DNA of 41,479 bases, from NCBI GenBank assembly GCA_018882745.1, contig VFFD01000003.1, positions 1 through 41,479 on the forward strand. Direction: 5' to 3'. This DNA comes from Candidatus Nanopelagicaceae bacterium. GTDB lineage: Bacteria > Actinomycetota > Actinomycetes > Nanopelagicales > Nanopelagicaceae. Positions 3,916-4,061 of the stretch are shown here, one piece after another; the stretch's first letter is position 1; each line of letters begins with the position of its first letter. Below the pieces are notes generated by a model, which worked only from the letters and a program-made list of their open reading frames with translations, did no database searches and was not told the origin of the DNA. A program made the translations under genes and the position numbers.

Positions 3916-3952
3916 GAGGCAGTTTGCGTAGTTAAGTTTCGCAAACTGCCTC
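3916..3952 (+). repeat. 13-bp perfect inverted repeat covering the tRNA 5' end
   Basis: Left arm 3916-3928 (GAGGCAGTTTGCG) and right arm 3940-3952 are perfect reverse complements with an 11-base loop; a G-T and an A-T pair extend the stem to 15. The right arm includes the first five bases of the following tRNA (3948-3952), so the transcript could pair either as this hairpin or as the tRNA acceptor stem. No U-run follows, so it is not an ordinary terminator of the upstream gene. Confidence 0.85.
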
Positions 3953-4020
3953 GATAGCTCAATGGATAGAGCGCCCACCCGCTAAGTGGGAGGTTATCGG
4001 ATCGAGGCCGATTTGGGGCA
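3948..4020 (+). tRNA. Unusual tRNA, anticodon GCU, tRNA-Arg-like body
   Basis: A 73-nt cloverleaf can be drawn. Acceptor is 3948-3954 with 4013-4019 (two G-U pairs), D-arm GCTC/GAGC with loop AATGGATA, anticodon stem CCCAC/GTGGG with loop CCGCTAA, a five-base variable loop, T-stem ATCGG/CCGAT, discriminator A4020, no encoded CCA. The anticodon reads GCT (Ser AGC/AGU), but a serine tRNA should have a long variable arm and G73. The A in the D-loop (A20 type), C35, U36 and A73 are arginine identity elements instead. Base 33 is C rather than the near-universal U, and the T-loop starts A-T-C rather than T-T-C. It may be a decayed tRNA-Arg copy, a regulatory tRNA-like structure, or a true odd decoder. 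Confidence 0.6.
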
Positions 4021-4026
4021 GAAAAA

Positions 4027-4061
4027 CTTAGAGAGACTCCTTAGCGAAGAGTCTCTCTAAG
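4027..4061 (+). terminator. 13-bp perfect hairpin downstream of the odd tRNA
   Basis: Arms 4027-4039 (CTTAGAGAGACTC) and 4049-4061 are perfect reverse complements with a nine-base loop. On the plus strand it directly follows the tRNA and could be a 3' processing or stop signal, but no U-run follows. On the minus strand it is followed by five T (4022-4026), so an intrinsic terminator would work better in that direction. Strand of use is uncertain. Confidence 0.6.

Follow-up and report, generated by a model that had tools for sequence, protein, structure and literature searches.

A putative non-decoding tRNA mimic in Nanopelagicaceae: a tRNA-Ser(GCU)-like element with an anticodon loop complementary to the loop of the 3' hairpin that follows it

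The window, that is the whole stretch of 41,479 nucleotides that was analysed, carries a tRNA-like element in the neighbourhood of SOUL, UbiA and peptidase S51 genes. ARAGORN calls it tRNA-Ser(gct) at 3947-4021, and the cloverleaf scores 55.0 bits against RF00005, above the gathering score of 29. In Rfam, nothing but 'tRNA' was found in the window and 20 related loci. A heliorhodopsin gene also lies near the element (positions 756-1544; 323.6 bits to PF18761). The features of the element are collected in the table.

Features of the tRNA-like element and its flanks in the window
Feature	Position	Strand	Basis or remark
Inverted repeat of 13 bp (arms 3916-3928, 3940-3952)	3916-3952		flanks the -10-like box
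-10-like box TAAGTT	3933-3938	+	start site inferred about 3943-3946
Extended acceptor helix, 5' strand (7 bp + 2)	3946-3954	+	pairs with 4013-4021
tRNA-like cloverleaf, called tRNA-Ser(gct)	3948-4020	+	ARAGORN, RF00005, folding, G098 comparison
Anticodon-loop segment CGCTAAG, putative kissing strand	3980-3986	+	complementary to 4040-4046; family-wide covariation
Extended acceptor helix, 3' strand, A73 at 4020	4013-4021	+	sequence reading, G098 comparison
3' hairpin, 13-bp stem, 9-nt loop CTTAGCGAA	4027-4061	+	stem letters differ in G098, pairing kept
Hairpin-loop segment CTTAGCG	4040-4046	+	complementary to anticodon loop

The first-pass annotation of this DNA had described a complete cloverleaf with a short variable loop, A20, A73 and a GCU anticodon; ARAGORN, RF00005 and the reading of the sequence all agree with it, and the cloverleaf is of class I. 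The acceptor stem is GCCTCGA/TTGGGGC, the D-arm GCTC-AATGGATA-GAGC with A20 present, and the anticodon arm CCCAC-CCGCTAA-GTGGG. The variable loop is AGGTT, only 5 nt, not the long arm of a class II tRNA-Ser. Position 33, which is U in a decoding tRNA, is C here, as it is in 17 of the 103 family members described below; this C33 and the T-loop AUCGAGG (T-arm ATCGG-ATCGAGG-CCGAT) bear out the two non-standard features that had been pointed out. The element has A73 and does not encode CCA. Thermodynamically, the cloverleaf by itself does not stand out (z -1.49), with 19/200 shuffles folding equally well, and by reading the 3' hairpin is without a clear U-tract. It had been asked whether a normal class II tRNA-Ser(GCU) exists elsewhere in this genome (1.22 Mb, 70 contigs, 93.4% complete). 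One is present at G000:C60:3-74, read by eye, its 5' end lost at the contig end (RF00005 29.3 bits, no ARAGORN call); the GCU gene of the window is thus an extra one.

The element is kept in a congener, genome G098, which answers whether relatives retain the locus. The two elements match at 96%, with 6 substitutions over 77 columns, all of them in stems and all leaving the pairing intact: the acceptor changes are G-C to A-U, U-G to U-A and G-U to G-C, and the anticodon-stem change is C-G to G-C. The downstream hairpins differ in their stems and are re-paired, while UUAGC stands in both loops. The gene neighbourhoods and the downstream genes differ between the two genomes; a nuclease gene and a weakly DoxX/MauE-like gene neighbour the G098 copy, and an ion-channel gene follows a little further on in both. 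With a covariance model built from these two elements (R1), no third copy above 71.3 bits was found in 296 genomes of the family Nanopelagicaceae. No homologue with U33 and an Arg anticodon, which would have marked the window copy as a recent mutant or an assembly error, turned up: the G098 element reads C33 and GCU, and in the family at large the triplet is mainly GAC. In a third genome, a stretch (L153 8600-8650, G017) beside a weakly DoxX/MauE-like gene shares only the 5' half of the window element and is an apparent remnant.

Weak BLAST matches in other genera include ordinary Asn, Arg and Ala tRNAs, and also loci that ARAGORN calls Val(gac/aac/cac) or '???'. These odd loci and the window element have one design in common: a TAnnTT box, an extended acceptor, a tRNA body with a near-constant D-arm and a strong 3' hairpin. 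In an RNAalifold analysis of 14 sequences, the window and G098 elements among them, both sides change in 25 of 33 pairs. A second model (R2), with both elements among its building sequences, gives over 150 matches of at least 92 bits within the family, a level at which ordinary tRNAs are not fully kept out. Of 99 R2 matches, one row of 36.5 bits was left out and one could not be parsed, which left 97, of which 95 had a leader of at least 40 nt. A later batch of 68 rows brought 42 into the analysis; 23 of the other 26 were added controls, 22 of them parsed (two poorly). The 110 family rows, with weak and non-matching ones retained, reduce to 103 distinct loci. An extension of the acceptor by at least 2 bp is found in 86 of the 95 tested rows, often as TGCGT...ACGCA; two of the 95 are ordinary tRNAs without it. 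At least four T in some 8-nt stretch past the hairpin loop occur in 99/103 loci, by a rough measure that may count stem bases. The matches are partly tandem, about 290-370 bp apart, and tandem copies with differing loop pairs are seen at L157 1284-2740, L182 1274-3015, L234 and L220. In G036 and G009, single small genes, one of them DoxX/MauE-like, lie between the copies.

Alignment A4 holds 67 of the 70 listed references, selected for a 24-nt anticodon region and for TNGTC/T in the hairpin loop. In it 94.3% of stem cells are paired, against 39-47% in slid controls; 26 of 34 pairs are changed on both sides, covariation is 0.498 against 0.215 in shuffles, and two-sided changes fill 372 cells against 115. 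For the anticodon stem the best fit has a bulge of one base, with 83% of the stem's cells paired.

A promoter-like box recurs along with the fold. TAnnTT stands at -19 to -13 from the tRNA start in 90 of the 101 other members, as well as in the window and G098, and in none of the two sets of ordinary tRNAs (0/29 and 0/22); a looser TAnnnT box starting at -24 to -14 is present in 99/103 leaders. The inverted repeat around the box is less general. In the window its 3' arm covers the first five acceptor bases, and G098 has a repeat at the matching position over the box in different letters. In a leader-helix test, 0 of 100 shuffles equalled either of these two, and only 18 of 95 rows came out at 5 or fewer in 100. 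L190, L212 and L250, like the window, have an inverted repeat of 10-15 bp; the 5' strand of the acceptor forms its 3' arm, and the promoter-like -10 box lies in its loop. This repeat is possibly an operator or a cruciform.

A further feature is the relation between the anticodon loop and the loop of the 3' hairpin. Across the family the loop pairs are GACGA/UCGUC and GACUA/UAGUC (the usual ones), AACGA/UCGUU, AACUA/UAGUU, CACGA/UCGUG and UAACGCA/UGCGUUA; in the window the pair is CGCUAAG/CUUAGCG. Among the 103 distinct loci, a set not selected on the loop, the longest complement averages 5.0 nt and reaches at least 5 nt in 64, against a mean of 33.9 and a maximum of 49 in 5,000 loop swaps; ordinary tRNAs with a hairpin reach it in 3/29 cases, and further ordinary tRNAs of the own genome in 2/22. 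In a fixed register, positions 34-38 are fully complementary in 60/103 (5,000 swaps: mean 22, maximum 35) and in 1/29 and 0/22 ordinary tRNAs (1/51 together), and 29 of the 103 members are without any 4- or 5-nt match in that register. Of the cells of the seven kissing pairs in A4, 88.2% are filled, against 11-47% after sliding, and the covariation of these pairs, 0.239 against 0.152, is reached by 0 of 500 shuffles. Because the sequences of A4 were chosen partly on the hairpin loop, which gives the invariant pairs 35-101 and 36-100 an advantage, the claim of complementarity is carried by the tests that were not selected on the loop. Simple letter shuffles give the 7-nt match of the window, taken by itself, a p of 0.003 and the 5-nt match of G098 a p of 0.025, two values that are not independent. 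At position 37 the 103 members have T 60 times, G 39 times, and C and A twice each. Where 34-36 is GAC, U37 stands opposite A 36 times, G37 opposite C 25 times and U37 opposite C 10 times. G37 is common in decoding tRNAs, and U37 is hardly known from them. At L304 101-221, L158 and L159, loops of the GACG/AAC type go with hairpin loops that hold no complement (for example UAAAAC or AAUAUUUUUU); these loci may have lost the lock or may be a different subtype.

How far the window element belongs to this family has to be judged from several sides. In R2, which was built with both, it scores 91.3 bits and the G098 element 91.9 bits. In R3, a model built without them, the scores are 64.3 and 66.4 bits, and ordinary tRNAs range from 25 to 90.9 bits, with two at 63.9 and 64.3; the window element does not score above them. 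Since R3 gives no separation from ordinary tRNAs, membership rests on the architecture, the promoter-like box and the loop complementarity. The window element has the TAnnTT box about 15 nt upstream and the lengthened acceptor, and both elements share the loop complementarity. Both also have an unbulged anticodon stem and A37, which departs from the bulge and U37 or G37 that are usual, not universal, in the family. On these grounds the two are very probably divergent members. Family loops such as CCGACUAA with UUAGUC can be set against CCGCUAA with UUAGCG in the window: there is one A fewer in the one loop and one partner U fewer in the other. Most simply, the 'serine anticodon' would be a shortened lock, in which GACUAA lost an A and its partner UUAGUC the matching U, and these deletions would make the software read a serine anticodon. 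No intermediate between the loop pairs GACUAA/UUAGUC and that of the window was found.

Taking together the anatomy, the compensatory changes, the family and the covarying loop complementarity, all of which are read directly from the sequences, we propose that the locus is probably an independent RNA with its own -10-like box, a non-decoding tRNA mimic whose anticodon is locked by a 3' hairpin paired to the anticodon loop. The first-pass annotation had allowed for a special role, a suggestion that these results support. An RNA of about 115-130 nt, some 115-120 nt at this locus, would be made from its own promoter, starting near the 5' end of the tRNA. Its tRNA-like fold would have a longer acceptor helix and the 3' hairpin at its end, and the hairpin loop would pair with the anticodon loop in cis, a putative intramolecular kissing loop that masks the anticodon. 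Like the lock, C33 in the window and U37 in many relatives speak against decoding. From the sequences we infer transcription, the kissing contact in solution, the absence of charging and decoding, and any role. Masking of the anticodon in cis, together with the lengthened acceptor end, suggests that this is not a decoding tRNA, and an anticodon loop complementary to the RNA's own tail hairpin means that the RNA probably does something other than decode. Tentatively, the likeliest role is that of a decoy or regulator bound to a protein that recognises tRNAs. A more speculative possibility is a lineage-wide family in which one RNA mimics both a tRNA and the codon it reads: AGC, GUC, GUU or GUG, the cognate codon, would be offered by the loop of the 3' hairpin to the anticodon of that RNA. 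As a pre-decoded tRNA, it could enter the ribosome, or be read by a system for tRNA surveillance or by an anticodon nuclease, and act as a translation regulator or an anti-nuclease decoy in these abundant freshwater bacteria.

A decayed copy had been suggested for this locus, and a decaying tRNA-Arg duplicate, followed by an ordinary terminator and with a loop match due to chance, would fit the lack of separation under R3, the apparent 5'-half remnant in G017 and the window match at p 0.003, which is not overwhelming. The compensatory changes between two species, where substitutions are pair-preserving only, contradict it, as do the 103 distinct loci parsed for the related family; moreover, the 3' hairpin is re-paired with UUAGC retained in its loop, and the TAnnTT box is common to the family and not to ordinary tRNAs. 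We consider decay unlikely. It had also been suggested that the tRNA, if charged with Arg, would misread AGC/AGU. As a chimeric tRNA decoding these codons as Arg, in deliberate mistranslation like that of tRNA-ProX, the element would make use of A20, C35, U36 and A73, which we take to match bacterial ArgRS identity, and of an intact cloverleaf conserved in G098. Dual-identity tRNAs without U33 do exist, as the available account of tRNA-ProX indicates (PMC11415595). C33, a loop complementary to the element's own 3' hairpin, relatives that carry GAC, AAC or CAC, with U37 in 60/103, and the absence of a synthetase among the ten window and nine G098 proteins scanned make this quite unlikely, and it is not the best reading.

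A regulatory switch would explain the inverted repeat differently: lying over the promoter and the acceptor strand, it would, with the 3' hairpin, control how the tRNA-like RNA, or the next gene, is transcribed or processed. The 13-bp repeat of the window, the matching but different one in G098 and such repeats in 18 of the 95 tested rows, with no more than 5 in 100 shuffles as good, speak for it. On the other side, no such repeat was found in the other 77 of the 95 rows, its 5' arm is upstream of the -10-like box and probably not transcribed, and the genes that follow downstream are not the same in the window and in G098; we judge a switch very unlikely. The non-decoding, locked tRNA mimic is the reading we retain. 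Other candidates were set aside. For a viral or mobile origin, strict loop patterns each gave one viral contig, neither of them matched by R2, and among the neighbouring proteins that were scanned there was no evident match to an integrase or transposase family. An integron-like attC array was considered for the copies that flank single genes in G036 and G009; it was rejected by reasoning, as the paired segments of these copies fall into two distinct covarying hairpins instead of a single long stem. The DoxX/MauE-like neighbour was rejected as a partner: it is found in 24 of 296 genomes, with a tRNA-like call in the fetched flanks of 4 of the 24 loci.

Several known systems share parts of this design. 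In T-box riboswitches, mRNA leaders, a specifier loop carries the cognate codon and pairs with the anticodon of a real tRNA in trans; a codon-bearing loop would pair with an anticodon here as well, but both partners lie in one small RNA. The bacterial Y RNA/YrlA is likewise a small non-decoding RNA with a tRNA-like module, but it accompanies a Ro60 orthologue, and the Ro60 TROVE domain (PF05731) is found in 0 of 61 family genomes, the own genome included; a bacterial Y RNA was rejected as a candidate. The staphylococcal nonproteogenic tRNA-Gly has a real tRNA fold with altered loops and leaves translation, without a locking hairpin. The pseudo-tRNA tRNA-Other of Bacillus cereus is a tRNA-like RNA with a role outside translation, as is proposed for the family here; it is said to be poorly aminoacylated and off polysomes, has a Trp anticodon and lies inside a long transcript, from 565 nt upstream to 523 nt downstream; it belongs to another phylum, and the description available mentions no kissing between anticodon and 3' hairpin (PMC3399842). 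In Streptomyces and Kitasatospora, tRNA-ProX, an actinomycete tRNA with a mismatched body and anticodon and A33, resembles the window element in its mismatch and its non-U33; it is, however, meant to decode and is encoded with a dedicated ProRSx, and the available description includes no 3' kissing hairpin (PMC11415595). No adjacent synthetase gene of that kind is seen among the proteins scanned at the window and G098 loci. Judged by listings and the openings of abstracts, no description of such an RNA was recognised in the open-access literature, and a small tRNA-shaped RNA family common in freshwater Nanopelagicaceae (acI) apparently has gone undescribed.

Under R3, ordinary tRNAs among the tested loci reach at most 90.9 bits, and matches of at least 92 bits, not every one read by eye, are found in 32 of 67 near-complete family genomes, the own genome not being one of them. 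In the genus, 24 genomes of which many are incomplete, strong R3 members occur only in G086 (126.7 bits) and G102 (125.0 bits). Among 345 genomes of the class, family members included, foreign R2 matches reach 96.1 bits; of 20 that were fetched, mostly top-scoring, 18 are tRNA-Arg(ACG), and the other two, an Arg(ccg) and a Val(aac), show no notable loop match. Since the fetched matches are mostly ordinary tRNA-Arg(ACG), R2 bits prove nothing outside the family. A search at the level of the order gave 296 genomes, of which every one listed belongs to this family. In G052, where no strong RNA copy was seen, a 248-aa ORF near a contig end (L154 52-798) matches trypsin-like and class I tRNA-synthetase families.

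Annotation software would count such genes as tRNAs (ARAGORN gives Val-GAC, Val-AAC, Ser-GCU and others here), which would distort the tRNA inventories of this lineage as well as inferences on its codon usage. If the kissing lock is real, it would be a way to make a non-decoding tRNA-shaped RNA in streamlined genomes, and because the loop pair drifts and yet is often compensated, loop swaps can test it directly. Class I GCU tRNAs are not confined to this locus: the pattern gave 34 stretches in genome contigs and 11 in viral contigs, and 20 of 47 pattern matches, the window included, parse as full cloverleaves. Beyond the window and L120 (the element of G098), a loop match of at least 5 nt in a hairpin of at least 8 bp is seen only at L110, with 5 nt; the wider set is taken as unrelated. 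The 18 cloverleaves (L109, L110, L113-L115, L117, L122, L128, L135, L136, L138, L140, L142, L143, L146, L147, L149 and L150) are single, come from several phyla and from viral contigs, and have C33 in 5 of 18; scattered as they are, they are another kind of 'short serine tRNA'.
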